Shown one piece after another: positions 1 to 58,035 of a stretch of 64,000 nucleotides of DNA. Made by a program: the position numbers and the translations under genes. The notes below the pieces were generated by a model. That model was not told the DNA's origin. It saw only the letters and a program-made list of their open reading frames with translations, and searched no databases. Source of the stretch: Allacma fusca. Lineage: Eukaryota > Arthropoda > Collembola > Symphypleona > Sminthuridae. Positions within the stretch are counted from its first letter, which is position 1. Every line of letters starts with the position of its first letter. The stretch covers positions 55,841,632 to 55,905,631 of the forward strand of contig OX359246.1 in NCBI GenBank assembly GCA_947179485.1. Direction: 5' to 3'.

Positions 1-403
1 TTCAGGTATTTTTCAGGTACGGGTAACCAAGTTATATTTGGTCAAAAATTCCTGAAGGGTAAAGTATTGGCTTGGATCCGAGGACCCAAGTTTGGGTTGT
101 CAAAACATTTGGAAACTAGCATTGATTATAACTATTAGATGGTAAACAACACTATTGTGTACAAGTACTTTGGCAGATTAAATTTTCTCCAAAAGTTAAC
201 ACCTGTGTTGTAAACTAGGCATTTAGTTCAATTCCGCTAACGAGCCAAATATGATTCTGCCAACGTCGACTAATATTGAAAATATTCAGAAACCTGGCTC
301 TTCAGGTTGGTTAATAACTTACCTTCAAGGTGATATTCTTCGGGATTCCGGGATACCTTATTCAGAGTTTTCATCCATCTGACTGATTGTGAGCATTGCA
401 ATC
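1..403. other. 5' flank of first gustatory receptor gene
   Basis: No gene is seen here. Bases about 241-310 are clearly related to about 9380-9452, which lies in front of a decayed receptor copy, so this flank was duplicated together with the receptor. No obvious TATA box was found. Confidence 0.5.
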
Positions 404-1952
404 ATGAAGGGTTTCGTCAGTGCAGTTGAAATCATTGGGAAAATTACGCTTTGTTTTCCCATTAAAAATCGTTTTTTTCACTTTGGCCGCAAGAATTTAG
501 AACCTGATTCATATTTTATTTTTTATTTTGTTCAGCTAATGTTTTTTATAGGATCAGGTGCGACGCTTGATACGCTGTACAGCAATTCGTTTGAAACCAT
601 CGTTCATAACGGCAGATTATCCGAGCACATAATGCAGGCTTTAATTTATTCAACGTACGTTTTCTCCGATGCATTAATTCGCTTTACAAATATATATCAC
701 AGCTGTACTATCATTGAGTTAACTTCGTCCTTGAAAGTACTTATGAAGAAATACGTTCCCAACGCCCAAGGAAATATGATTGTTATCATGTTTATTGCAT
801 CATTACTTTCAGCTGGTTTCATCAAAGCTTGGACTGATATTCTAATACATGATCTAAATTACGACTTCACTTCGTACAACTTTACGCTGACATTTTTGCC
901 TGTAAATAATATGGTCCTGGCCGGTGTATATTGTTTCACCGATACTGGCACGTACACATCATTAATATTCTCGTATGCATTCATTGTGGGCTATGGGCTA
1001 ATTATTTTAGGAATTTATGGAAAATATATAGCAAAATTTGTGAGAACATTTATAACGCCAGCAAAGGGATTTGGTAAAGAATACCGCTTGACCTTTCCCA
1101 CATTAATTGAAGATTTTGGAAGGGATGCCGAAATTCTTAAACAATGCATGGACAAATATTCGAAAATTGCTGGAGTTTACACGCTAGCCATTCTGTACGT
1201 ATCAACTGTAAATGTTATTCGGTATCTGAACCATATGACCACCGCGGATACACTCGAGTTTGTATCCAATTCTTGGATTTTCAATGCTAGCTGTTTTGTC
1301 GCCGTGGTGTTTTTATCAAATTTTGGGAACTACCTTCAGATAAGGGTAGACTTTTGAATTGAAATATTTATCGTTGAGCTCATGATGTAATGACATTTAT
1401 GTGTACGCTTCCCATTTGTAATTTTTTTTTGACTTTCCTAAGGCTAAAACACTGAAGGAAGATTTGGTAGTTGCATATGTACGGAATCCAACACCACCCT
1501 CTGAGCAGGTATCACAGGATCAGGTTCTAGTAGTGTGTGTTGCTAATTAAAAACTTTGAATATCAAAATAATAATTTGTACTTGCGAGAATTTCTTTGCT
1601 GAGTGGAGTAACATAAGTTCCTTTCCTCGAACTTTCACAGGTCACTAAGCTTTCTTTATGGCTTTCTTCATGGGAGTGGAAACTATCCCCTTTGGACATG
1701 TTTGATTTGAATCACACAACAGTTCCTGCTGTAAGTAATCCCAAGAAATAAAATAAATATAATTTGTACGTGAATTTAATTTAAAATAAGTAGCCACTGC
1801 CAGATTGCCGTGGTTATTTTATGTGGATTATTCAAAAATACATAAGATTTAGTAAAGAATTGCTGATTATTTTATAGGTGGCTGCGGTTGTTATAACTTA
1901 CTTCGTCTTGATATTTCAACTGAGGACGTCAGAAAATGTGACTAAAGCTTGA
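404..1952 (+). CDS. gustatory receptor family protein, copy 1 (four exons)
   Basis: Insect-type chemoreceptor of the gustatory receptor superfamily, a seven-helix plasma-membrane protein acting as a ligand-gated channel in sensory neurons. Model: exons 404-1345, 1443-1508, 1641-1730 and 1878-1952, all phase 0 with GT-AG junctions, giving 390 aa. An open frame begins at 389 on a GTG, but the ATG at 404 aligns with the start of the neighbouring paralogue. The last exon encodes TYFVLIFQL, the TYhhhhhQF-type signature of the seventh helix that defines the family. The preceding exon carries a conserved stretch containing DMFDLNHTT. First exons of this gene and of the one at 4228 are both exactly 942 nt and align without gaps. 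The ligand cannot be read from sequence. Confidence 0.88.
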
Positions 1953-3394
1953 GCAACTTACAAGGTTTAAAATCTTTAAACGAAATACCGCACCCCAGAA
2001 TTGGGTAAACGCGAAGGGGCAGTGCAGCAGTAGTGTAAATGTCATTCAGGCATTATTAATGAGAATGACACTGGTATTGGTAGTAGAGGTAGCCGTATAA
2101 ATATACAATGTTTGCAACTGCAGGAAATTAAAATTATATTACTGTGTGTACTGTAATACACAAAATATATGGGCAGGGGTCGGATGTTTGTGGGAAGACT
2201 GAAAGATTCTTCCCAATGAAATAAATTTTCTGGCACGGGAAAACAAATCAGCCACGCATTTCAAAGGGAAGGAAAATTGTTTTGTGGCAAGAAGTTTGGA
2301 AATTTGTTGACCCTTTTTAAAAGGGATTCTAATACATGTGGAGGTTTGGAAGGGAAAATGTTTGTCAATCAGATTTTCAAATTTGTTGATCTTTATTCAG
2401 CAGGAATTTTTAAACTTTCCATCAGGGACACCAACAGGGAAAATTGAATGATCGTCCAGGTATACATAGTTACAAAATCCAACCCTTGTACCATTAAATG
2501 GATAACTGCAAATAAAATATAAAATGAAAATATCAAAAAAGAATTACAAAAGCTGAACTATAGTAATGCCAAAGAACTACTCTGTAATTAAGGTGAAAAC
2601 TATTTAGTGAAGTGTTCCAACGAAAGTTCTTCTTCTACCATTAAATTGAAAACACACGTGGAATGTACGATCTTCAAAAGAATTAAAAGTAGAACGCCTA
2701 CCAATATATGTATAACTGAAGCCGTCGTTCTAACCTCAAATAACATGCAAGCCGAACCAGTAACATTTTTATTTTTCCAAAAAAGGATGGACAAGACCCA
2801 AAATTTTGAAAACTGATTCTGTGACAATAAGACACTTTCGAATAATCGCAGGATGTGACGACGAGGTGGTTGACAGCTTTGCGAAAAGCTATTACAGCCA
2901 AATTTTGATATAACGTATGCTTAGGGGACGGTCAATTTTTATGTGCTACAAGAATTGTTCGTTATATACATGCTAATCCTTAAGCAATACGTATAAAAAA
3001 TAAAATTATAGATATAATTCTGCTATATGTATATAGCCAACGGTTAGTGAGATTTGACAGCAAATTTATCCGCGTAAATAAAAAATCATCTCGACCGAAA
3101 TTTCAAAATCATCATCAAAATTTTGTTGGGAAAGAGTATGATGTCGAATCGATATTTACTGAATATTAGAAAATTCGAATAAATGCTGTTCCATTACAAT
3201 ATTCACTCTACGGAACTTCTCAGATGGTTTTTAGCTGGAGAGGGAGCATACTTGAGAACTATGTATTTGTAAGTCAAGACAATGTATGACAAAGAAAGTT
3301 CATACTTACATAATATATATAGTTATTATTGATAAAATAAATATTTCTACACACATGAATATTGAACAGTTCAAGCTCTAGCTAGTGGATTGCA
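1953..3394. other. intergenic, no gene recognised
   Basis: Short open frames at 2042-2236 and 2600-2901 on both strands overlap each other and have no coding character or splice context. I see nothing else here. Confidence 0.5.
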
Positions 3395-3836
3395 CGTCGC
3401 ATCCGTGCTGCGGACAGTTATGTACTTAACAAAGATTTTGGATTACAGATAACGGATTACATTGTTTATATGTTCCCTGAACGATTACGGATTAATGAAT
3501 ATATTTTTTCTTTGACAATGTGGGTTTGGGTTTAGGGATTACATTTTTTTTAAATTGGCTTAGGGATTAGTAATAAATTACAGATTACGTAAATTAAATT
3601 CTTATAAGGGATAACTTTGTTGGATTCCTTAATTGGCACACATGCCAATGATTTTTTCGGGATTACGGATTACAGGGTTGTTCCTTTGAATCCGGGATTA
3701 ACGGATTACGAGCCAAAATGTTGTTCCAGGGTTACGGATAGCAGATTTTATAAATGCTTGAAGTAAGGATTAAGATTATGGAATATTGGAACTACGTATA
3801 TTGTGAAACCCGGATTACGCCCAGCACTGGATCACA
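3395..3836. mobile_element. self-similar GGATTAC-word element, probably an old non-autonomous transposon
   Basis: The interior repeats variants of GGATTACGGATTAC in both spacing and phase. Ends are weakly inverted: GTGCTG near 3403 and CAGCACTGGAT at about 3822-3832. Flanks CGTCGCAT and GATCACAT agree at only 5 of 8 positions, so a target duplication is suggestive at best. It belongs with the clearer word-iterated hAT elements elsewhere in the window. Confidence 0.5.
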
Positions 3837-4227
3837 TATAAATAGATACTTACATGCAACTTCTTTTACACAATTATCGTAAAGTATCCCATAATTACAT
3901 GTATGTGTACACATCTTTCAATTCCATGAAAGTAATGACTTACGTATTTTGGAAATTGAAATGTATCATTAGAGAACTATTACAGAGATAATGGATTACT
4001 TCTTTCCAACTCGTTTATGCCTTCATTACAGTTACACTAAGTCAAATTAAAATTATTACTAACGTCGGTAAATATCCAAGTATCCACAAACCAAAAAATA
4101 TATTCTGACATTCAAATATTACTATTTAATATTCCGTCGCATTTTCCCTGGTGACATATCCTTGTGGACTCTGCATAGAGTATTTTGTTACTCAGTCCGA
4201 GCTACTATCCACCGGAACCTTGTAATC

Positions 4228-5969
4228 ATGAACCGTTTGATAAGTGTTCCCGAAACAATTGGAAAAATAATCATTTGCTTTCCAACCAGAGATTTTCGTT
4301 TCCATTTTGGTAACCAAAAGTCAGGGCCGAATTCGTACTTTACGTTCAATTTCATTCAGTTTATTTTATTTTTTGGATCAGTGTTGGCGACGTTTGATAC
4401 ACTGTACAGCAATTCGATGGAAACAATTGTTCAGAGTGAGAAATTATCAGAGAAAATCACGCAGGCTTTAATATACTCAACATATGTTGTCTCGGATTCG
4501 TTAATTCGAATTACCAATATTTTTTATAGATGTCATGTGCTTGAGCTAACTTCGACCCTGACAATTCTTATCAAGAAATACAACCCCAAGATCTCAAAAA
4601 GTATTTTGGCCATTATTTGCATTTCGCTATTGCTTTCAACTTGTCTCATCATTGCTTTGGCAGAAGTTTCATATTTTGACTTAAATTCTGATTACAGTTC
4701 CAGTAACTTTAAGCTTATTCTTTTACCTCTGAATAATAGATTCTTACGAGGTTTTTATTTTTTCTACGATATATGCACATATACAGGTTTAATATTCGCA
4801 TATGTTTTCATTGTATGCAATGGCCTGAGTATTTTAGGCATTTATTGCAGTTACCTTGAGAAATTCAAGAGGACATTTATAAAGTCAGAAGCAACGTTTG
4901 AGAACGACTCCCTTACCTTTCTCACAAGAGTTGAGACTTTTGTTCAAGACGCCGTATTTCTCAAACAATGCATGGATAAGTATTCAAAAACAGCTGGAGT
5001 ATACGCTGTGGCAATTCTGTACGTTTCAACTGTAAACGTAATTCGGTACATGAACTTTGTGATCACAAGGGATACACTGGAATTCGTATCCAATTCGCTA
5101 ATGTTCAATGCAAGCTGCTTTGTTGCCATTGGATTTTTATCAAGTTTCGGGAACTACCTTCAAGGCAAGGTATATTTCAGACGAGAAATGTGAAGTCATG
5201 CAGTCATGACACGCCATAATTTAACTGATAGTGTTCACTTTACCTATACTTAATAATTACAACTATACGTAATTACATATGTTTTTGTTAGGCTAAAACG
5301 ATGAAGGAAGACTTGGTTGTTACACATGTGCGGAGCATTACACCACAGTCAGATCAGGTATTATACTAACTAAATGAAAACTAGAAAATAGACCTTGAAA
5401 TTTAAATAATATTTTGTAGTTTCTGCAAAACATATTTTATTTGGCAGATACGTTTCGTCGACGAATAAGCACACACGTAGAACATTTAAATATCGAATGT
5501 AAATATTAATTTGGTTTCCATGCTCTCAACAGGTTCATAAGCTGCTGTTATGGCTTTCCACCTGGGATTTTAAACTGTCCCTTTTGGACATGTTTGATTT
5601 GAATCATACAACAATCCCAGCGGTAAGTTTATTCTGGAAGATTATCTTCCGGATCGTTTGAAATATTTTGCTAATAGTTTTCACTGAAATGGTCACTGCA
5701 AAAAGAGAACAAATTAAATACGAAATGTTCCGAAATATAACAATTTGCAATTATTATAGCAGTAAGCAGTTGCTTGTTAGCGTTTTTCTCATGCTTTAAT
5801 TTAATAGAGCGTTGATTTTGGAGCCGAAAAAGTTTAAAAATAGTTTTAGACTGTTTAGTTTAGGACTTTTTCAGAAACTGTATTTATTCAACAGGTAACT
5901 GCGGTTGTTTTAACATACTTCGTCCTTCTATTTCAACTAAGAACTTCAGAGAATATGGCCCAGAATTAA
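4228..5969 (+). CDS. gustatory receptor family protein, copy 2 (four exons)
   Basis: Tandem paralogue of the receptor at 404. Exons 4228-5169, 5292-5357, 5533-5622 and 5895-5969, all phase 0, encode 390 aa. Exon lengths (942, 66, 90 and 75 nt) are identical to the first copy, which strongly supports both models. The C-terminal signature reads TYFVLLFQL. The open frame extends upstream to 4162, but the ATG at 4228 is the one shared with the paralogue. The gene appears intact. Introns are 122, 175 and 272 nt and have diverged from copy 1, so the duplication is not very recent. Confidence 0.88.
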
Positions 5970-6907: not shown

Positions 6908-7506
6908 TTAACAGCTACCGGCACCACACTCGCATCCCTCACACCTCTGTGCCTTGACAGTCTTCGCTCCACAAGAACCTCCTTCCGGACATTCACAATC
7001 CACCCGGGTCACTTCGCAACCCTGGCATTTCCGGATTTTAAGAGTGCATTCCCGAGCCCCACAATCGCATTTGGCACTCAAGAGCTCAGTTTGATCTCCA
7101 CAGCAGCCTTCACCATCCTGACGGTTGCACCGGATCTGGAATTTGCACCGACAAGTATTCGACCCATTCTGACATTCGCAAGTCCACTCAACAGTTTTAT
7201 TTTCTGCGTTGAATGCACATGGGACGTTGGTAACACAGTTGCAGGTGCCTCCCGGATTGCGTTCACAGTTGCATTCCGTTGGGTTTGATTCTACATAAAA
7301 AAATTACAAATGTTACTTACAATTCAGACAATAATAATACTTGTACTGCCTTTCAAATGTAACCATAATTGTTTGCCCAAATTTTTTTTTAATTTACGGC
7401 AACAAGTTGGGTGAAAGTGAATTTAGGGAAAGTGACCGGGTAATATGAGAAAAAGTTGGAGCTTATTAAATGCTAAAAAATACTCACCAACAGCAAGACT
7501 GGCCAT
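6908..7506 (-). CDS. metallothionein-like cysteine-rich protein, copy A
   Basis: Two exons, 7488-7506 and 6908-7290, joined in phase 1 (GAA across the junction), encode 133 aa ending at TAA. There are 24 cysteines (18%), mostly in CxC pairs (CNC, CEC, CRC, CDC) and single CC and CxxC motifs, spread evenly. No signal peptide is present (start MASLAVESN), so the protein is probably cytosolic. That composition is typical of metallothioneins, which bind Zn, Cu or Cd through thiolate clusters. It is longer than classical metallothioneins (about 40-80 aa), resembling the long multi-domain forms. Upstream TGCACAC elements support the call. The open frame on the opposite strand is a shadow. An alternative is an unrelated cysteine-rich protein. 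Confidence 0.8.
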
Positions 7507-10622: not shown

Positions 10623-11221
10623 TTAACAGCTACCGGCACCACACTCGCATCCCTCACACCTCTGTGCCTTGACAGTCTTCGCTCCACAAGAACCTCCTTC
10701 CGGACATTCACAATCCACCCGGGTCACTTCGCAACCCTGGCATTTCCGGATTTTAAGAGTGCATTCCCGAGCCCCACAATCGCATTTGGCACTCAAGAGC
10801 TCAGTTTGATCTCCACAGCAGCCTTCACCATCCTGACGGTTGCACCGGATCTGGAATTTGCACCGACAAGTATTCGACCCATTCTGACATTCGCAAGTCC
10901 ACTCAACAGTTTTATTTTCTGCGTTGAATGCACATGGGACGTTGGTAACACAGTTGCAGGTGCCTCCCGGATTGCGTTCACAGTTGCATTCCGTTGGGTT
11001 TGATTCTACATAAAAAAATTACAAATGTTACTTACAATTCAGACAATAATAATACTTGTACTGCCTTTCAAATGTAACCATAATTGTTTGCCCAAATTTT
11101 TTTTTAATTTACGGCAACAAGTTGGGTGAAAGTGAATTTAGGGAAAGTGACCGGGTAATATGAGAAAAAGTTGGAGCTTATTAAATGCTAAAAAATACTC
11201 ACCAACAGCAAGACTGGCCAT
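10623..11221 (-). CDS. metallothionein-like cysteine-rich protein, copy B
   Basis: Exons 11203-11221 and 10623-11005 encode the same 133-aa, 24-cysteine protein as the gene at 6908, at a constant offset of 3715 bases. By eye I found no difference between the two from about 6888 to 7540 and from 10603 to 11255, including the 197-bp intron. The flanks on both sides differ at many positions. The gene is intact with the same start, intron phase and stop. A cluster of metal-response motifs lies upstream. Near identity with diverged flanks points to recent gene conversion rather than a new duplication. Two copies could raise metal-binding capacity, as in other arthropod metallothionein duplications (inference). 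Confidence 0.8.
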
Positions 11222-19374: not shown

Positions 19375-20718
19375 AGAGTGCAATTAGGGTAGACATGGTG
19401 TTGCAGATTATGAATTCGAAAATGGATAATTTCGTAGACTTTTTAATCTGGTAGAACGATCCCATTTCTAACGCTATGGGTCGGCATGATCGAAGCGTTG
19501 TTAAGATTTCCTTCGTTTGCTGAGGAAACTCCCGCTGTACGCTATTTTTCACTGTTGGAACAATGAAGTGAGAGTATTCAGGGGAGACACAGTTTTCATT
19601 CTTGATGGAGTTCGACCGCGGAGGAAGATTGCGCTACCCTGATCATTCCGATGGTCAACAGTATGGTACACTTGACCCAAATAACGTCTGACAACAAATA
19701 GAGTTTCCTTCTGAGAATACTCCTTGGGTTGGGAGTATTTTGAGTAACAAGTAGATATACAAGCAAACGGTAAGTAAAACACTCATGGAAGGAAAGTTGC
19801 CATAGGCGGATGGATCCACTTGGTCATGAAAACGAATGGTTCCGAAACAACCCAGAATTATATTTACCACAGCAAAAGCTGTGAAGGTTGGAATGTAGAT
19901 TTTTGAGCAACTAGCATTATAACGGTTGGACAATAGCTGTAACATTCGGTAAGTCTTCAGCCTCTCTGACAACGTCATATGTATTTTTCGCATCTCTGTG
20001 TTTTGTAAATTTAATATTATTATTGTTATTCCTGTGTCCGGATAAGAATTTGTGTTAGTTACCTGATCTGCTTCACTTGCCGCACTGTTTGACAATGGAG
20101 GAAGCTTGTCATAACGTAGAAACAGACAGTGCCAAAATTGCTGCAAACTCGAAAGATGCAGAAAAAAGTGTAGAATGTTCTTGTTCCAAAGTTCCGATAT
20201 TCCTCCGGAAGAATTGAATAAAGATATTGCTTCTTCTCAGCTTCTTGGACAAGCATCGCTGATTGAGATGTACACTGAGGAAAGCATAGGAACAGTAGGA
20301 TACCATAAGTAATGTAATTCTTCGTTGGGGGCATTGGATCCTCACCGAAGTACTCCCTCACGTTCTACATGGAATTGAGGTAATTCAATACTTCGTTCCC
20401 ATTCTTACGTGCGTTCCTATGCAGAAAGAATACCAGGACCCATCCCACGAAGGCAAAGAATACAAGAGAACATTCCCCTTGGTTGACAGTTTTGTCTAGC
20501 AAAACTCGAATCAGCTCTCGGGTTGCTTGAGCCAATTCTAAGGACAGAATAATACGTTGCATAATTATCCATAATATCCGCTTCCAGACTGGTCCATGAC
20601 GAAATGACTTCTTCGAGAAAGAATATCGGAACGGTACAGACAACACATACTGACCAAACTTGAAGAAGATTCCCGTAATTCGGAGACTTAGACGGGCGGA
20701 ATTTTCTGGAAGGACCAT
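19375..20718 (-). pseudogene. multi-pass membrane protein pseudogene, copy 1
   Basis: Diverged copy of the intact gene at 30724-32083, including 5' and 3' flanks. The start ATG at 20718 and the splice site near 20059 are kept. A TAG replaces the TAC codon of the intact copy near 20362, just after the coding stretch for LNSM. At least two frame changes lie in the second exon, so later parts (for example the stretch for CYSKYSQPKEYSQKET) fall in other frames. It is therefore a dead host gene copy. Confidence 0.8.
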
Positions 20719-20959
20719 ATTTTGTGGGAAATGTTATAATTATAAAGAGCAAGACCTCAAAAGGCAAAGAATAGAAACCTTGAAAAATTACAATGTATTC
20801 AAAGCTTTCAGTTTTTAGGTTAGGTCAGACAAAAATGTTCATGTGACTGACTCATGGAGGTGTGTTCATGGTTGACTGATATTTGCTCGTGACAAGGCGT
20901 CTACCGGAAAAAAACTACCTGTAATTTAAAGCAGTAGTGTTTGATGATAATTTTTCCAT

Positions 20960-30723: not shown

Positions 30724-32083
30724 CTATATTGTGATTAGGGCAGTGATCGTGTTGCAGGTTATGAATTCGAATATGGATAATTTTGTAGATTTTTTAATTT
30801 GGTAGAACGATCCCATTTCCAACGCGACGGGTCGACATGACCTGAGTATTGTTAAGATTTCTTTCCTTTGCCGAGAAAGCTCCGTCTGTAAATCATTCCT
30901 CACTGTTGAAATAGCTAAATGGGAGTCTTCAGACGAGACTGTTTCTATTCCCGGCGGAGTTCCTTGCCTGCGAAAGAGGACTTTGTTACCATAATCCTTC
31001 TGGTGGTCAGTAGTAGGGTTCATTTGACCCAAATAACGTTTCTTAACAAATTGAACTTCCTTCTCAGTGAACTCCTTGGGCTGGGAGTATTTCGAGTACG
31101 AAGTATACAAGCAGGCGGTTGCTAAGATACTCATAGAAGGAAAGTTGCCATAGGCGGATGGATCCACTTGGTCATGAAAACGAATGGTTCCGAAGCAACC
31201 CAGAATTATATTTACCACAGCAAAAGCTGTGAAGGTTGGAATGTAGATCTTTGCGCAACCAGCATTATATCGGTTGGACAATAGCTGTAACATTCGGTAA
31301 GTCTTCAGCCGCTCTGACAACGTCATGTTTTTCGCATCTCTGTGTTTCGGAAAATTTTATAATTGAAATTCCTTTTATCCATATGGATAATCGATCTGTA
31401 AGATGAAGTAATGGAAATAATATTTACCTGATCTGCGTCACTTGTTGCACTGTTTGACAATGGAGGAAGCTTGTCATCAGATAGAAACAGACAGTGCCAA
31501 AATTGCTGCAAACTCGAAAGATGCAGAAAAAAGTGTAGAATGTTCTTGTTCCAACGTTCCGGTATTCCTCCGGAAGAATTGAGTAAAGATATTGCTTCTT
31601 CTCAGCTTCTTGGACAAGCATCGCCGATTGAGATGTACACTGAGGAAAGCATAGGAACAGTAGGATCCCGTAAGTAATGTAATTCTTCGTTGTGGGCATT
31701 GCATCCTCACCGAAGTACTCCCTCACGTTGTACATGGAATTGACATAGTTTATTATTTCGTTCCCATTCTTAAGTGTGTTCCTATGTAGAAAGAATACCA
31801 GGACCCATCCCACGAAGGCAAAGAATACAAGAGAGCATTCCCCTTGATTGACAGTTTTGTCTAGCAAAACTCGAATCAGCTCTCTGGTTGCTTGAGCCAA
31901 TTCTAAGGACAGAATAATACGTTGCGTAATTATCCATAATATCCGCTTCCAGACTGGTCCATGACAAAATGACTTCTTCGAGAAAGAATATCGGAACGGT
32001 ACAGACAACACATACTGACCAAACTTGTAGAAGATTGCCGTAATTCGGAGACTTAGACGGGTGGAATTTTCTGGAAGGACCAT
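30724..32083 (-). CDS. multi-pass membrane protein of unknown function, intact copy 2
   Basis: Two exons, 31428-32083 and 30724-31339, spliced in phase 2 (AG|A gives Arg), encode 423 aa. Likely membrane segments are at SLVFFAFVGWVLVFFL, YGILLFLCF, FYTFFCIFRVCSNFG, FTAFAVVNIILGCF and the C-terminal IFEFITCNTITALIT. A charged loop of roughly 100 residues lies between the last two. A short motif SCRPVALEMGSF precedes the last helix. I know of similar multi-pass families expanded in springtails but cannot name this one, and it lacks the TYhhhhhQF signature of gustatory receptors. The paralogue at 19375 is dead, so this is the surviving copy. ATG 32083 is shared by both copies. Confidence 0.72.
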
Positions 32084-32299
32084 ATTTTGTGGGAAATGTT
32101 GTAATTATTATAAAAAGCAGGACCTCAAAAGGCAAAATATAGAAACCTTTAAAAATTACAATGTATTCAATGCTTTCAGTATTTAAGTAAGGTCGGACTA
32201 AAGTGTTGGGAGAAACGTTTATGGCTGACTGAATTCGTTAGGGATGAAGTGACTACCGCAAGCAAAACTGCGTTATGTTTAGAGTAGAAAGGGCAGTTA

Positions 32300-38690: not shown

Positions 38691-38939
38691 GTGTCATCGA
38701 GTTGAGAGCGAAGCGAGTGTTTTAGAAGTATTTGGGAAATGCCGAGCGGAAGAAAGCGAAGGAAGGGAAAGAAGGGGGAAAGGTGAGGTGTGACATCAGC
38801 GGCATCTCAAAACATGCAATAAGGGAGTTAATTCCGAATGTCGATGACATACGAATTTCAAATGAAGTTTATGAAGCAATCAGGGCAACCTTCACAGAAT
38901 TCATTCGAAATGTCGTTAGATACCCAATCAACAATCGCA

Positions 38940-39110
38940 GAACGGCCCAGCATCGGTTCAGTGTTGTTGGCAAAGTGTACCATTTGTCCAACGGCGGGAT
39001 ACCGGGACGACATTTTCACCCAACAATTAAACGATAACTCGCCGAGAACGGGCCTTTAAGGGCATCGTGTATGGGCCAGCGCTTTGCCAACATATGCCCA
39101 AGTACAAATG
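38940..39110. repeat. left subterminal GGCC-word array
   Basis: Degenerate words such as GGCCCAGCATCGG, GGCAAAGTG, GGGATACCGGGACG and GGGCCAGCGCTTTGCC follow one another. It mirrors the right-hand array of the same element. Confidence 0.6.
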
Positions 39111-39225
39111 AAGGTGGCACCATGATTGAACCAGTAGTATGACTATATGAAATAAATATACATGCCGGGTAGATAGTGTAGTGCACAATTTTAAACCGAT
39201 TATTTCTAATACCGTTTTTTCAATT

Positions 39226-39723
39226 TTATTCGCCATTAAGTAAAAATGTATGTAACATAGGAATACAAACATACACAATCATAGACCCTGTATAATCAAG
39301 TGGAAGTAAAGCACATTTACTACTTTTAGAGATAGGAAGACCATCAACACCTACAGTAATACTAATTGTACTTTTATAATCTAAAGTTTCAAAAGCAGCT
39401 GAACTCGGGATCCGGGAAAGTACTATTCCAACCCAAAGTCTTGTTTGCAAATAATTTAAACCAAAATAAAAATATTTTCCTTTTCCAATGTAAGTAATAT
39501 ACCTTGGAATTTTCTCTGTTGTCAGTAGCGTCCTAGGATCCCGTGGGACATTTGGTATTTTGGTTTTGTTAATAATTAAACTGAGTAAGTCCTTTAGTGT
39601 GTAATGTTGTGACTTACAGCCCATTGTGCAGGGTTTTCTTTAAATTGTATTCTACTACTATCTGATTCCAAAGAGTCATCACTGTCAGTACTACCATCAC
39701 CAGAATTTTCTGAACATGTCCAA
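39226..39723 (-). pseudogene. transposon-associated ORF, PKDPRTLL / IDGLP family (incomplete)
   Basis: The coding pieces ENPAQWAVSHNITH, then IPNVPRDPRTLLTT, YFYFGL and ITVGVDGLPISKSS match in order a protein family seen in many invertebrate genomes (general form LPKDxRTLLxTP, YxYFGL, INIDGLPLFKSS), which I regard as transposon-encoded from memory only. The usual continuation after IDGLP is absent and the reading frame changes once near 39610, so this is a relic. Acidic serine-rich sequence upstream (near 39640-39840) probably belongs to the same ORF. It lies downstream of, and in the same orientation as, the DUF4806 gene. Confidence 0.6.
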
Positions 39724-39899
39724 CTGCAAAGATCATTAGATCTAACAACTTAGTTAAATTGAGAACTCTCCTCACATTCACTCACATTGTCAATGACTGT
39801 AGACCTACTAACTAACACTGTGTCATTAGTTAAGTTGGTTTTACGTAAATAAACAATAGACTATATTATAAACTATTAGCTTAGTAATTCAGCATTGAA

Positions 39900-42698
39900 T
39901 TAGGAACGTTTTGCTCTTCCTCCGTATCTGTCAGCTCCCCCATGAAACCACCGTCCACAAAATTGCTCCACTTCAGCTTCGTTTACGTTTTGACTCCTTG
40001 CAACTGAAGCTGTGAATTAAAGATTAAACACCACTAAAAAATATTTATACACACGTTGTTTGTGTATATTTACATTGTGTTACATTTATCGATTTGATTT
40101 GAAAATTTTACACAAATTTAGTTGTGATCCACAACAGTAATAATTACTGCAAAACAAATACGCAGCACTTACACACAATAATTTTACAAAGGTTGGTTCC
40201 CTTAAAAGCAATTTTTGGTGACCCTTGTTTTGATGTCCCAGTAAAGTTGATCTCCAAAGAGAAAGAATGCGATAACAATTTTGATAATAGTCGACGTATA
40301 TGGTGTTCAAAATCTTTGCCACCAGTTGTTTCACACCACGAAACCTACATGAGTAAAATAAAATTTGAAAATTAAAATCAAAAAACCTATACAAGTTACT
40401 CTCGCTACATGCCCACTTGTGTTCCGAGTGACTTTTTTATAAACGTGCATAGATGGTCTAATGCTACAGCATGGACAAAGAGCAGGTTTGTGTTCAGGTA
40501 AAATGTAATATAAGTACACTGAAGCACGGTTTCCTGCTTCACAGTTTTAGAATTAAATAATTTCCATTAAAGGGTTCGACAGGCATTGAAGTAAGGTGAT
40601 ATAAGATATTCTGGCAACCCACCGTAGCCAATATTAACCTAATGTAGATCCACAAATCATGGATATTGACAAATATTTGGTCAACAAACCAGTGATGACA
40701 TATACTAGCCAATTTGTTGGAACTTAATCCTGATTTGACTACTTTGGGTCAATCTTAGGTCTTGAACCCAATAATGGTCCATGTACAAAATAAGGGGTCT
40801 ATAAAACCAGCTGTGATGAAATTGCGCCAGTACAAGACACCCACATTGACCAACATGATGCGGAGAATTCAATGGTCACCAATACGGTCCATAGTTTTAA
40901 ACTTCAGCGCCATTTCTACAGCAAACCCGGGCGAGTGGACCCGCATTTTTTATCCTCGACAGTAAAATATCTACCTATGGCTACAAAAATTTGCACACCG
41001 AACCCGAGAGGGAATATGGCGAGGTTTACTTGTTAGAGAGGAATTTCTTGTCAAGGATAGCACAAAAACAATAAAGTTTTTAAATTCATTCTTACAAGTT
41101 TTGCAGTTAAAGTTACGCCACCAAGCAATTCCTCTGCCACATCCAGTTCCGACTTGTTTTTCAATGGAATGTCCAACGGGCAAAGCAAACTTTCATACGT
41201 ATTTTTCTTCGCAACTGAACACTTAATGATTCCCAATTCAGACTTGAGTTCCAAAATTTCATTCAAGAGAACCTTTTGAAAATCTTAAAACAAATAGTTA
41301 ATACTCACGTGCAGAGTTAACAGATCTCAAGTTGACATTTAAGGTTGAATCGTTTAAAGTATATTCTCTATTAATTATATTATTTTCTGCATCCTATAAA
41401 TTACTTACGTCGAAATTCTGAAATCAAATTTTGCATTTCGGTCCTTGATGGCTCGAGGTTTTTCTGCATTAAATTTTCCCCGGACTTGGATCCTGAGATG
41501 TTTGAGGTAGATTTGGGGTTGCATGATTTATACTCGTAGAATCCAAGTGTTGCCCCAGGTTGACGGACCTATCAATGACAATTTCCGCATTGCCTGTGTA
41601 GTTGGATATCGGGATGACACTCACAGTCGCAGCAGATTCTTTTTAAGTAGCGTGGTACGCAGCGATTGTATTCAATCCCGTCAGTTGCACGCCTTTCAAC
41701 GTTGAACTTTCTAAAATATTAAATTCGATCAGAATTTTGTTGTAACAAAAATCCTTTTATATAAAGCAAGTTTACTCACCATCAATTAAATCGCCACCAA
41801 GAATTTCCAACTGATTTACATCACTGTCCTCCAGCATTAACCGTATTGATGATCGTGAGGAAACTTCGTCCGTGCTTTGTATGTTGGCTGTTTGAACAAA
41901 AATGCTTTAATTCATATTAGTTATTTCAATCAAAATATTTTTTCAGTATTGTTGAATTGTACAATAAAAATAAATTGTGAAATTACTTCTAAATTTCCAT
42001 TTTTATAAGACAGTTATAATAATAATTATTATTATATAATATTATTTCATTTGTAATATGACTAACTTGGTAAAGCTTGGAATCGATACAACGGAACAAG
42101 TGCTGACTGTTGTGAATTATTTTCTAGTTCTAAATTATCCGATTCAGATTCCTGAATTCTCGAAGTTGGCTGACGTGACTTCTGAATTTTAGTTGCTTTT
42201 TCGGATTTCTGCTTTGTACCAATTTTTTGCTTACGCAACTTCATCCGAGCCTCATGATCCAAATCTGATTCGCTAGAAACTTCAAAGTTTGACAAGGACT
42301 GATAGGTAGTAGATTTTTCCACTGCTGCAATGTAGTTATCCGTTGAATTATACATTGACTAACTGACATGTAATTATATTTAAATGTTCACAGGATCATT
42401 ATACAAAACAACTATAGAAATAAAAGAATTTAAACTCATAATTATTGCTACATACAAAATATTACGTTCTGATGATTTAATATAATTATTTTATGTTACC
42501 TTCGAAACATTTAATTTCGACAGGATACGATGGCCACTTGCTTTTGGGCTTACTCAAGTAATTGCTTTTTAAAGCTGTAATATTTGGCCCATTCTTTGTA
42601 GGAAATTGGCACGTCGTTTGTTCTGAGTCCAACCACCTAACCGGGACTTCAATTCCGCATTCTGTAGTAAATTCTACAACACAGAATTTAGCTGCCAT
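39900..42698 (-). CDS. DUF4806-domain protein, apparently intact (seven exons)
   Basis: Exons 42500-42698, 42067-42324, 41780-41887, 41409-41492, 41096-41283, 40173-40344 and 39900-40009 join in consistent phase and sum to 1119 nt (372 aa). Residues 1-66 are the usual N-terminal module of this family (FCVVEF, IEVPVRWL, KWPSYPVEI). A lysine- and serine-rich linker covers about 67-216. The C-terminal part is DUF4806: LLCPLDIPLKNKSELDVAEELL, then GGKDFEHHIRRLLSKL, INFTG and KIAFKGTNLCKII, ending VEQFCGRWFHGGADRYGGR. DUF4806 proteins are numerous in arthropods and of unknown function. Location within a transposon with inverted ends suggests it is an element-encoded accessory or DNA-binding protein. 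The frame appears unbroken although the neighbouring ORF is decayed. Intron 3 contains an open stretch (41520-41705, plus strand) that is a shadow. Confidence 0.78.
40560..40940. repeat. internal word repeat in an intron of the DUF4806 gene
   Basis: AT-richer degenerate words (TTGGTCAA, CCAATTT, GGTCCAT, TTGACCAA) fill much of the intron between the exons ending at 40344 and 41096. They look like a separate small insertion or a decayed array. Confidence 0.35.
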
Positions 42699-43169
42699 TT
42701 CTACAAAATGTATAAATAATTGTTAATGTAGGATGCCATATTGCGAAACTGTATTATTAATTAGGAATTGCTAAATCTTCAGTGTACGGAGTTTAGTAAG
42801 TGTCTTAATATTTACTGCACGTACATAGTTTGAAGATATATAGATAAAGATAAAGTAGAGATAATCAAAATTATTACCTGGTAACCACGAATGGATTGCC
42901 AATTTTAAATTGACAAGTTTAGTCATAAAATTATGAGCTCTCAATCGGTAAGAGAAAATTAAATACTAATGTTAAAGTGATGTAACTTCACTTAGCAAAC
43001 TTACATCCCGGATTTCGTAAGTGGACACGATGAACTGTGACAGGAAGCCATACCGTTAAAGCACGCCGAGTTAGGATAAATTGCATTATAGATTTGACAA
43101 ATGATTGCCCGCTCTAAAGTTAATGACATGCGCACTTTTTGTTGTTAAATAAAATAAATCGGGCCGGTA

Positions 43170-43430
43170 TCACTTCTACATGCTAACCAGCAGCATACCA
43201 ATGACAGCGTTTGCCGACGTGAACTTGTATCGGCCCGTTTTTTGCTGGCCAAACGGTTGTGGGGCCAATGCTCGGTGGGCAAGAAAGTCCTGTATTGCCC
43301 CATTTTGTTCCCGAGCCGTCATAGAGAAGCAACGGCCCGTCATTTACTGGGCATAGAAACCCAGCACTCACCCATTTAGGCTTCCAGCCGACATAAACAT
43401 GCAATGGCCCATCGCTTAGCGGGCTTAGAT
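43170..43430. repeat. right subterminal GGCC-word array
   Basis: Words such as CGGCCCGT, GGGGCCAATGCTCGGTGGGC, CGGCCCGTCATTTACTGGGC and GGCCCATCGCTTAGCGGGC recur with a spacing of about 50-60 bases. The opposite-strand open frame at 43183-43602 merely reads through this array and the H4-like exon. Confidence 0.65.
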
Positions 43431-43566
43431 TGTTGATTGGGTAGTCTCTCGCTATCACAGATAGCGAAGGAAGGAGAATGGTCACAGTTGGCGATGTAAC
43501 TAGGGCCATCCGAAGGGAACAGAATCGTCTAGCAGGATTGGAATAGAGCTTCCACATAAAACCAAC

Positions 43567-55422: not shown

Positions 55423-56189
55423 TTACAGAAAAGAAGTTACTTGCTCATGGGTAAGTCGACCCTTGGATTCATCCACAGTGATTTCATCTATTTTGTCGGA
55501 CGATTCGTAGGATGCAGTAACAGTGAGGATGCCCTCCTCGTTCACAGACATGGTAATTTTGATATGCTCACCCTTCTTGCAAGACGCAGGCAAATTTTTA
55601 GTTTTGAAACTACCCAAGAAATGGTTTTCATGGGCGGCTGGGTTCTCTCCTTCGTATATAGATATTACAGTTTGATGACCTTCATTGGCAGTGACAAACA
55701 TCTGGGACACTGTACAGGGTACAAGGGTGTTCTTGTTGATGATAATATTCAAATACTTTTCTTTCGTCCCCTTTTTATAGGCTTCGATACCAATTGGTAG
55801 TGGGATAACGTCCTGAATAGTAATATTCATGGATTGATTTGACTTTGCAAGACTTTCCTCCGTATACGTCATAAGAGCTGCTTGGACGGCAGCCCCGTAA
55901 GCCACTGCTTCATCCTGATTGATTCTTTTATTGAGTTTCTTGCCATCAAAGTAGGCGGATATCATTTCTTGAAGTTTTGGAATTCTAGAGGATCCCCCAG
56001 CAAGGATAATTTCATCCACAGAAGATTTTTGTAAGCCCGAGTCTTGTAAAACTTGATCCATGATGCTAATACATTTCTTAAAATGATGTTCATTCAAGGA
56101 ACTGAAAGTTTCTCGAGAGATTTTGATACAGAGGTCTACGTCACCCCAAGCTGCATCCAAAGAGGCAACTGTTCTTTTTGCAGCTGTTA

Positions 56190-57421
56190 AGCTTAGTTCA
56201 CATGCATGCGATTGTACATGCGATTTGCTGTTAACGCGCGTTCATTTTGTTTCAATCATGTGAACGTAACTGCGTTGCATTCATGCGATTCCTGCATGCG
56301 TCGATGACCATGCGTTTATACGTGCGATTTCAAAGTTGGAAAAATTGAACTTCAACGCGCGTCGGATAACTTTTATCATCAATTTTGTTAGAATTAATAA
56401 GCGTGTAAGTAAAAAGTTGTGGACAAATTCTCTGAAAAAAGCAAAGTTTAGAAAGAATGAAATTAAATATTTGGAGAAAAACAAAAGAAGGACTCGTTTT
56501 CCTAGCTTAAATTAACCAAAATAAAATTGTCATTTGACGACGCTCAACGGGGTAAATAGCTTTTCGAATTTGATCATTCATTTGCCAGTGGTCGGATTTT
56601 TGTAAATCTCCCTGCTGAATATTATCTCCCTGCTAGTAGGTCCTCAACGATTTCAAAAATCCCTGCTGAAAAAAAGGTCAACGATTTTCAAAATCCCTGT
56701 TGACAAAAAAAAGTCCCTTACAAGACGTGAAATCCCTGCCAAATTAGGCCAATCAAGCCAAAAATCCCTGTTTGCTTAACAAATTTACAAATTTCCCTGA
56801 AATACGTCAACAAATTTGAAAATCCCTGCCAAAAAAGGTCAACGTTTTTAAAAATCCCCGTTCGTAAAAATAAATCCCTTCCCTTTGAGATTTTCCCTGC
56901 CAGAAATATTTTTTCCCTGGGAAGAATCTTCCCATCTTCCTACAAAATTTTTTGCCAAGAATGGAACCAAGATTTCGTATTAGAACAAATATAAACTATT
57001 TAATATTAAGTGCCTTAGGAGTACAGGAAAACTCACAGCCAAGAGGAGTCTCCTCTAGATTTTTGCTTCCTGCGAAAAATGGTCGAATACAATACATCCT
57101 TTCCTTTTTAACGTTTTTGTCCTCTTGGTATAAATACATTACTACCTACGTAATTATCTTTCAATTCTTTGAGCCCTCTCTTCCGATGGCACAATTATTT
57201 GCAACCATGTTATCTTTTAACAGAAAAAGTGTTCCATTGATTGAGTGAAAGTTTTTGTTGGAAAGTAAAGACTGAATAACGCAAGCAATATTCGTGGCTA
57301 TATGTGAATGGTCCCGCGATGCGATTTGCACAGCAAATCGCATCGCGGGAATTTCCATTAATCGCATGTAGTAAACGTATCGCAAAGCTTGACGCAAACG
57401 CATGTAATTGTGAACTAACCT
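56190..57421. mobile_element. Harbinger-like DNA transposon in the Hsp70 copy, TAA target duplication
   Basis: The ends AGCTTAGTTCACA (56190) and TGTGAACTAACCT (ending 57421) are inverted with one mismatch. TTA flanks both sides (56187-56189 and 57422-57424), i.e. TAA on the coding strand. Taking out the element with one copy of TAA joins the Hsp70 frame as AAKNSLTAAKRTV-type sequence with no gap, which proves both borders. Subterminal regions are rich in GCATGCGAT and CGCATG words and contain a perfect palindrome (57314-57352, 18-bp arms). TWA duplications are typical of PIF/Harbinger, but no transposase is present. Confidence 0.85.
56577..56940. repeat. nested word-repeat insertion (AAATCCCTG word)
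   Basis: It starts with CAGTGGTCGGATTTTTGT, the same start as at 13597, and iterates AAATCCCTGCTGAAAAAAGG and GGTCAACGATTTTC variants. It lies within the Harbinger-like element and so came later. The right border is unclear. Confidence 0.6.
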
Positions 57422-58035
57422 TTAGACTGTTTTTTGCTTCCTCGCATACATTTTTTAGACGCTTTAGATTTCTTGCCGTTTTTATTTTTAACTCCGAATT
57501 TAATGAATGCTTACCAGAAGCTAAGTTAATTGAGTGTGTCCTTTCAAACTCTTGGATACAATAGTCTGCCAATGAATTATCGAAATCCTCCCCACCGAGA
57601 TGGGTGTCCCCACCAGCAGCTTTGATGGCAATGTGTTGGCCTTCTATCGTCAACACCGCGATATCCAGAGTTCCTCCACCCAAATCAAATATAAGAACAT
57701 TCTTACAATTAGCAATGGCTTTCTCTTGATGACAATACGCAATGGCTGAAGCAGTAGGTTCATTCAATATTCGCAGGGCTTCCAATCCGGCAATAGTCCC
57801 TGCATCTTTCGTTGCCTGCCGTTACCCATCATTGAAATAAGCTGGAACTGTAATGACTGCTCGAGTTACAGCATGACGTAAATAATCTTCTGCTATTTTT
57901 TTCATATGAGCCAAAACTTTCGCTGATACTTGTTCAGGATGATACGATTTCCCCGTAAGAACTAACTTCGGTACATTGTCTTCTCCTATAACTTTAAAAG
58001 GCCAGAGTTTAATATCGTTTTGAAGGAGGGGGTCT

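Follow-up and report, generated by a model that had tools for sequence, protein, structure and literature searches.

The transposable element described here occupies positions 38923-43441 of a 64,000-nucleotide stretch of the collembolan Allacma fusca (contig OX359246.1, positions 55,841,632 to 55,905,631; this whole stretch is called the window below), and it is probably the remnant of a two-gene TRC element, in which a gene of the DUF4806 family would provide a TNPA-like partner of the transposase and whose window copy would have been mobilised in trans. Judged from its sequence, the element is a member of TRC, the animal branch of CACTA/EnSpm (CMC-type), by its CCC ends, its 2-bp duplications and its transposase. 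The window copy appears to be non-autonomous and internally deleted; complete relatives are predicted to carry a DDE transposase together with a DUF4806 protein. That DUF4806 genes may be machinery of a mobile family, as the original prediction had proposed, is well supported in this genome by linkage, parallel divergence and matched ends. All genome searches were run on the whole Allacma fusca assembly (393 Mb, 91 contigs), and L-numbers designate loci taken from it.

The borders of the element are defined by the following features:

38921-38922: target-site duplication, left copy (TA)
38923-38936, plus strand: 14-bp terminal inverted repeat, transposase-side end
43428-43441, minus strand: 14-bp terminal inverted repeat, DUF4806-side end
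43442-43443: target-site duplication, right copy (TA)

The sequence CCCAATCAACAATC starts at 38923 and its reverse complement ends at 43441, so that the inverted ends are indeed perfect over 14 bp, as had been claimed. When this 14-mer was searched for in the window with up to two mismatches, only these two places were found, both exact, while shuffled windows (n = 100) contained on average 0.63 places and reached two in 15 cases out of 100. Genome-wide, 40 exact matches were obtained versus 4 for a reversed-pattern control, and nine complete end pairs were recognised among them, delimiting elements of 3.5-6.1 kb; the ends are, hence, not peculiar to the window. A perfect 2-bp direct duplication flanks each of the nine pairs (TA, GT, TG, GA, GT, TA, TT, AG, TT). 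Since its letters vary, the TA that flanks the window copy is incidental and reflects no target specificity: a TA duplication had been reported correctly for this copy, but it is not a trait of the family. Four relatives have other CCC ends with 2-bp duplications, namely L054 (AA), L056 (TC), L055 (TA, with imperfect ends) and L064 (GC, with ends CCCGAGTAGAAAT), which brings to 13 out of 13 the elements with ends set that start with CCC and are flanked by a 2-bp target-site duplication. One should bear in mind that the first nine were chosen by their ends, and that the duplication was part of the end search for L054, L056 and L064, whereas for L055 it was read after the ends had been set. Ends were also sought at L063 and over part of the L057 stretch, and none were found there.

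These borders receive independent support from the frame that the element interrupts (38726-38922 and 43444-43546), which is histone-fold-like. Once the empty site is closed in silico, with a single TA and an X at the in-frame stop of the junction, the rejoined flanks match the Pfam family CBFD_NFYB_HMF above its cut-off (E = 1.1e-5) in an alignment that spans the junction, so the earlier use of this H4-like frame to fix the borders holds. In view of this in-frame stop, the interrupted frame was possibly that of a pseudogene before the element inserted. The left flank matches only itself genome-wide, and no natural empty site was found in a paralogue.

Because the window copy is flanked by TA, a Tc1/mariner-like element with a TA target duplication was considered; other copies duplicate GT, TG, GA, TT, AG, AA, TC or GC, and the transposase is of the CACTA type, so we give this assignment practically no credence. 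ISL2EU/Harbinger elements form another group with 2-bp duplications, and they are ruled out by the same CACTA-type transposase.

Apart from these elements, eleven minus-strand copies of the 14-mer lie 43-167 kb apart over 1 Mb of contig C1 (79503044-80512458). The one that we inspected (L028) has a different sequence beside the 14-mer and an open reading frame (ORF) of internal repeats nearby; this series is possibly a segmental or satellite array, and not a TRC element of the window kind.

Both coding regions of the element lie on the minus strand, in the same orientation as predicted. The first of them is the transposase gene, of which two parts are left:

39229-39639, minus strand: transposase remnant, open frame of 137 amino acids (aa)
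39640-39832, minus strand: degenerate 5' portion of the transposase gene, frame broken and some 90 bp missing relative to L016

In the sister copy L016, the transposase is a single open frame of 676 aa. Residues 11-114 of the 137-aa frame match the N-terminal region of the transposase and residues 108-137 its C-terminal region, the two being about 1.3 kb apart in complete copies; in the window remnant, an internal deletion of about 1.28 kb (gap 4200-5485 of the L016 alignment) has joined an N-terminal part directly to the very C-terminus. The PKDPRTLL ORF, proposed originally as a possible enzymatic part of the system, is by this comparison a dead remnant of a deleted transposase and no separate gene; it is transposase by origin, as suspected.

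The signature of CMC/CMCT transposases consists of three acidic residues, with C(2)C and H(3-4)H motifs between the second D and the last E (PMC12730594). In the five transposases that we aligned (L016, L054-L057), the acidic residues within DGLP, DAPAR and FEN as well as CxxC and HxxxH are invariant; by eye, the L064 transposase, which is outside this alignment, has Y at the first Cys. The window transposase keeps only the first acidic residue, the second and third being deleted along with the Cys/His motifs. A hidden Markov model (HMM) built from the five sequences matches the ORFs of L060 and L061 (E = 4e-43 and 1e-44), which had been retrieved through Transposase_21 matches over the cut-off, and those of L058 and L059 (E = 4e-83 and 1e-97), retrieved by DUF4218. 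Direct Pfam matches are weak and below cut-offs: DUF4218 in L016 (E = 0.1) and L064 (E = 6e-4), and Transposase_21 in L057 (E = 0.0034); L016, L054-L056 and L064 have no direct match to Transposase_21 (PF02992). A search of the PDB with the transposase gave one match (E = 0.17).

The second coding region is a DUF4806-type gene, for which a model of seven exons with GT-AG at every intron was deduced from the sister copies, a continuous protein of 453 aa being encoded by each of L016, L010, L012 and L013. Transferred to the window copy, where exon 7 was placed by alignment to the L016 gene model, this model reads as follows:

42500-42698, minus strand: exon 1, conserved N-terminal domain (N-domain)
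42067-42339, minus strand: exon 2, splice acceptor at 42340-42341 lost in the window copy and in L014
41780-41887, minus strand: exon 3
41409-41710, minus strand: exon 4, in-frame stop at 41643-41645 and 7-base deletion relative to the sister copies
41096-41283, minus strand: exon 5
40173-40344, minus strand: exon 6, containing the core of the Pfam match
39900-40009, minus strand: exon 7

With its exon-2 acceptor lost and its exon 4 disrupted by an in-frame stop as well as by a deletion of 7 bases, this gene is not intact, although the original prediction had taken it as seemingly so.

The search of the genome with the Pfam DUF4806 profile gave a single place at E <= 0.001, which we think is due to introns splitting the domain; given this poor yield, we used protein queries instead. 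Single exons score 20.1 bits in the window copy, 17.8 in L057 (E = 0.004) and 18.3 in L064 (E = 0.003), all under the Pfam gathering score of 25 bits for DUF4806 (PF16064); the L029 exon, at 31.9 bits, is above it.

Several copies of the element are nearly identical, and they are inserted at separate sites, each having flanks and a duplication of its own. The window copy is 100.0% identical (rounded) to L014 over 4519 aligned bases, L014 being 21 bases longer and flanked by a different duplication, and L010, L012 and L013 share 100.0% mutual identity (rounded) over 5863 bases. We infer from these comparisons that the family moved recently. As for the window copy, an element that is dead in both of its genes and has an identical copy elsewhere with its own duplication was probably mobilised in trans by the proteins of other copies.

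The association between DUF4806 genes and transposases extends well beyond this family. We merged within 400 bp the matches of three DUF4806 protein queries (best 150 of 178, 150 of 387 and 150 of 323 candidates scored) into 255 loci, decayed ones included. Transposases were collected by means of the window transposase (best 150 of 381 candidates scored, of which 143 were used later, seven C-terminal rows being dropped), of the Pfam families DUF4218 (best 150 of 310) and Transposase_21 (51 of 51), both run to E = 1, so that some of these matches are below Pfam cut-offs, and of two further searches for TRC-type transposases (best 65 of 1503 and best 65 of 1463). The N-domain was searched for separately (best 150 of 309 candidates scored; 96 of 97 rows were used later, one second-piece row being dropped). 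As not all candidates were scored, the linkage counts are lower bounds.

With all transposase searches pooled, at least 157 of the 255 DUF4806 loci have a same-strand transposase match no more than 6 kb away; among the matches listed, it is downstream in 93 and upstream only in 64. Among the same matches, an opposite-strand transposase lies near two of the 255 loci, and none has an opposite-strand one only. For random positions, drawn on five contigs (C1, C8, C9, C10 and C12), the share with a linked transposase is 0.7%. Seen from the transposase side, a DUF4806 match lies downstream of at least 42 of 46 full-length L064-type transposases (match > 1.7 kb). Before the L064 search, at least 88 of 143 window-query transposase matches had a DUF4806 or N-domain match within 6 kb; this is the case for at least 54 of 150 DUF4218 matches and, among the matches listed, for 1 of 51 Transposase_21 places. 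Within these lists, the pairing, thus, marks one CACTA-like transposase lineage and not all of them.

Two side observations concern the transposases themselves. L060, L061 and the other Transposase_21 places, which match this Pfam family directly, form a second lineage of the CACTA type. In addition, the first-look candidates for TRC-type transposases amount to about 1,460-1,500 per search in this 393-Mb genome, 65 being scored in each; these transposases are probably a very large family here.

The two genes occur in two orders. The DUF4806 gene is the upstream one of the two in the window type (L016, L011, L054-L057). The reverse order is seen in L064, where an open N-domain frame (2690-2908) and then a DUF4806 exon (3833-4129) come after the transposase frame (567-2642), and the loci L029, L058 and L059 (about 3 kb each) likewise have the transposase and then the N-domain, L029 with DUF4806 as well. 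Only about 50 bp (2643-2689) separate the L064 transposase frame from the first domain frame of the DUF4806 gene, a gap that suggests a shared transcript, by analogy with tnpD and tnpA of Spm.

Between L016 and L011, the proportions of nonsynonymous and synonymous differences (pN and pS) are 0.196 and 0.77 for DUF4806 (294 codons), and 0.233 and 0.68 for the transposase (641 codons), with a ratio of nonsynonymous to synonymous substitution rates (dN/dS) of 0.16 for the latter; synonymous sites are near saturation in this comparison. Over seven elements, the distances between DUF4806 proteins (N-domain and DUF4806 exon) increase in step with those between transposases (Mantel r = 0.89, a value as high being reached in 4 of 5040 permutations), the L011 transposase being represented by a 327-aa piece. 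The transposases of the DUF4806-bearing elements compared differ at 45-74% of residues. When identity to a single query was used instead, the correlation over 60 linked pairs was rho = 0.43, with 85 of 143 transposase identities entered.

The ends of the window copy are enriched in GGCC words, which had been noticed inside both ends at the outset and which we could substantiate by counting:

38937-39225: GGCC-bearing subterminal region, with three of the words in the 150 bp or so next to the transposase-side end
43122-43427: GGCC-bearing subterminal region, with six of the words in the 280 bp or so next to the DUF4806-side end

The terminal 640 bp contain 9 GGCC versus 3.66 expected under a first-order Markov model, and the 3879-bp interior contains 2. 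When six elements are pooled, 32 GGCC are found in 3840 bp of ends, while the interior sequence (25,392 bp) contains 28; about 14 would be expected in the ends from a first-order Markov model of their own sequence, so that the excess beyond composition is about twofold, the rest being base composition. Observed over expected numbers are 5/2.59 in L011, 6/2.75 in L054 and 7/1.46 in L056. In L011, whose aligned bases show about 62% identity to those of L016, several GGCC words are kept at nearly the same distances from the ends (22, 32-33, 103-105 and 129-130 bp).

A number of results weigh against a role of DUF4806 as transposase partner and have to be set beside the above. Constraint is weaker between closer copies: dN/dS is 0.61 (DUF4806) and 0.42 (transposase) between L016 and L015, and 0.51 and 0.98, respectively, between L016 and the window copy, which fits several decaying copies. 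Over 52 divergent linked pairs, the identity correlation falls to rho = 0.12 and is not significant. The spliced L016 protein matches Pfam DUF4806 over residues 335-411 with 24.8 bits (E = 2.7e-5), just below the cut-off. The DUF4806 profile found no match in the PDB, and the six PDB matches of the DUF4806 protein (best E = 0.037) bear unrelated names. PMC11075544 calls DUF4806 a BEN DNA-binding subtype, citing Pan et al. 2023; our analysis does not confirm it, as no BEN family is among the Pfam matches of the DUF4806 proteins, and PMC10206803, a 2023 BANP-BEN structure presumed to be the source, does not mention Pfam, DUF or InterPro. GGCC words are less convincing in the terminal 640 bp of L055 (5 observed, 3.36 expected) and L064 (0 observed, 0.40 expected); L064 limits the word at most to window-type families. 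For the full-length L057-type transposases, a scored DUF4806 match lies upstream in at least 25 cases out of 59. Lastly, among the matches listed, 98 of 255 DUF4806 loci have no transposase within 6 kb, and 37 of 96 N-domain matches have none within 9 kb.

Taken alone, the 98 unpaired loci would suit an explanation in which DUF4806 genes are host genes that TRC elements merely neighbour. The two genes share the same strand, with no opposite-only locus out of 255 among the matches listed, and the DUF4806 gene lies within the matched ends of the examined elements with set ends that retain it, which makes this explanation very improbable in our eyes. Two apparently unpaired loci were inspected, L057 and L063. 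L057 had been picked for having no linked DUF4806 match (L054-L056 were picked for having one), yet an N-domain and a DUF4806 exon could be seen there by eye. L063, a DUF4806 locus with no listed transposase, has an N-domain (E = 6e-8), DUF4806 (E = 1e-10) and a C-terminal remnant of the transposase (E = 5e-10). The N-domain, DUF4806 and transposase profiles used here were built from peptides including those of L057, L054, L055, L011 and L016 (also L056 for the N-domain), in which matches hold by construction; L018, L026, L029, L058, L059, L063 and L064 are outside this set.

In a second alternative, a TRC element would have captured a host gene on a single occasion, and DUF4806 would since have been carried along as passive cargo. 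The window copy moved despite its broken DUF4806 gene, and so did not need its own copy in cis, and DUF4806 dN/dS values of 0.5-0.6 between close copies point the same way. Passive cargo should decay, whereas DUF4806 is under a constraint similar to that of the transposase between L016 and L011; moreover, it is found in two gene orders, across transposases as different as those described above, and diverges in parallel with them. We, therefore, regard passive carriage as improbable: on balance, these sequence comparisons argue for DUF4806 as a maintained gene of the element.

As regards mechanism, a TRC transposase would cut the CCC..GGG ends and insert the element, thereby producing a 2-bp duplication whose letters vary. 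The DUF4806 protein would most likely bind subterminal repeats (GGCC in window-type families) and, once bound, bring the ends together or regulate the element, after which the transposase would cut; proteins from other copies would have acted in this way on the ends of the window copy, leading to its recent movement. DNA binding by DUF4806, its target and its need for transposition are proposed here by analogy. A further alternative has DUF4806 as a self-serving regulator, either anti-silencing or repressing a promoter, outside the cut-and-paste complex. Plant TNPA reactivates methylated Spm promoters and represses active unmethylated ones (PMC1636069), and the subterminal repeats on the DUF4806 side of the element could serve as a promoter; the presence of GGCC words near either end of the window copy is better suited to an end-binding role. 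We hold a purely regulatory function to be rather doubtful, and it would be compatible with the partner role that we favour.

Elsewhere in the window, two cysteine-rich frames of 131 aa with the same translation lie about 3.7 kb apart (6911-7303 and 10626-11018, minus strand). Duplicated frames at 383-5190, 19658-20824 and 30727-32237 are insect-chemoreceptor-like by eye, and frames at 55426-57821 (minus strand) resemble pieces of Hsp70, again by eye. Relatives were also looked for in viral contigs, where five stretches matched a pattern and none was confirmed.

DUF4806 has drawn attention as a gene family in several animals: it is over-represented in Hydra, with 69 and 54 in two species (PMC7642931), enriched in an ambrosia beetle (PMC13270666), and includes a gene among the differentiation/selection loci of Anopheles (PMC11445403). 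In the parts of the literature that our search covered (Repbase and most subscription journals lie outside it), we found no link between DUF4806 and transposons. It is about an even call, in our opinion, whether the DUF4806 proteins of arthropods, Hydra and fish are in general the animal counterpart of TNPA, that is, sequence-specific DNA-binding partners in TRC elements, so that the annotated genes would be transposon genes or their domesticated descendants and not adaptively expanded host families. Were they TRC genes, lists of expanded or selected host genes would have to be filtered for them; animal CACTA elements would gain a conserved, testable candidate for their second protein, and a large unexplained animal gene family a concrete job that can be put to the test.

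Plant En/Spm elements make a 3-bp target duplication, and their deletion derivatives are moved in trans. Their core is CACTA, as opposed to CCC here. They encode two proteins, TNPD and TNPA, both essential for transposition (PMC1636069), and it is by role only that DUF4806 is likened to the latter; ends with subterminal repeats are a further trait shared with plant CACTA elements (PMC8978399). With the CMC/CMCT clade at large (EnSpm, Mirage, Chapaev, Transib, Plavaka), the elements described here share the C(2)C and H(3-4)H motifs and duplications within the range of 2-5 bp; they differ by CCC..GGG ends, where CA..TG is found in most cases (PMC12730594). In Hydra, Spongebob (EnSpm-4N1_HM, 5,836 bp) is likewise assigned to TRC, with the end CCCAGCCAACATTGAC and a 2-bp duplication; its authors had no exact transposase, and the passages describing it mention no second gene (PMC4298943). 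The closest parallel is found in the TRC elements of DeMarco et al. 2006, comprising SmTRC1 of Schistosoma and elements of Aedes aegypti and Tribolium (PMC1636069), which have in common with ours CCC core ends, 2-bp duplications, a second protein and, as judged indirectly for ours through the family HMM, a tnp2/Transposase_21-type transposase. The Aedes end CCCAGTCAAC and the Tribolium end CCCTAGTAGCACC... both come with 2-bp repeats; compared over ten bases, the former is the same as the start of the L056 end and has one mismatch to the window end. For SmTRC1, a TNPA-like partner was postulated, the candidate being without similarity in other TRC elements, and tests were called for (PMC1636069). 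What distinguishes the Allacma fusca elements from those described in that report is that their second gene is DUF4806, which recurs across families and in either order relative to the transposase.

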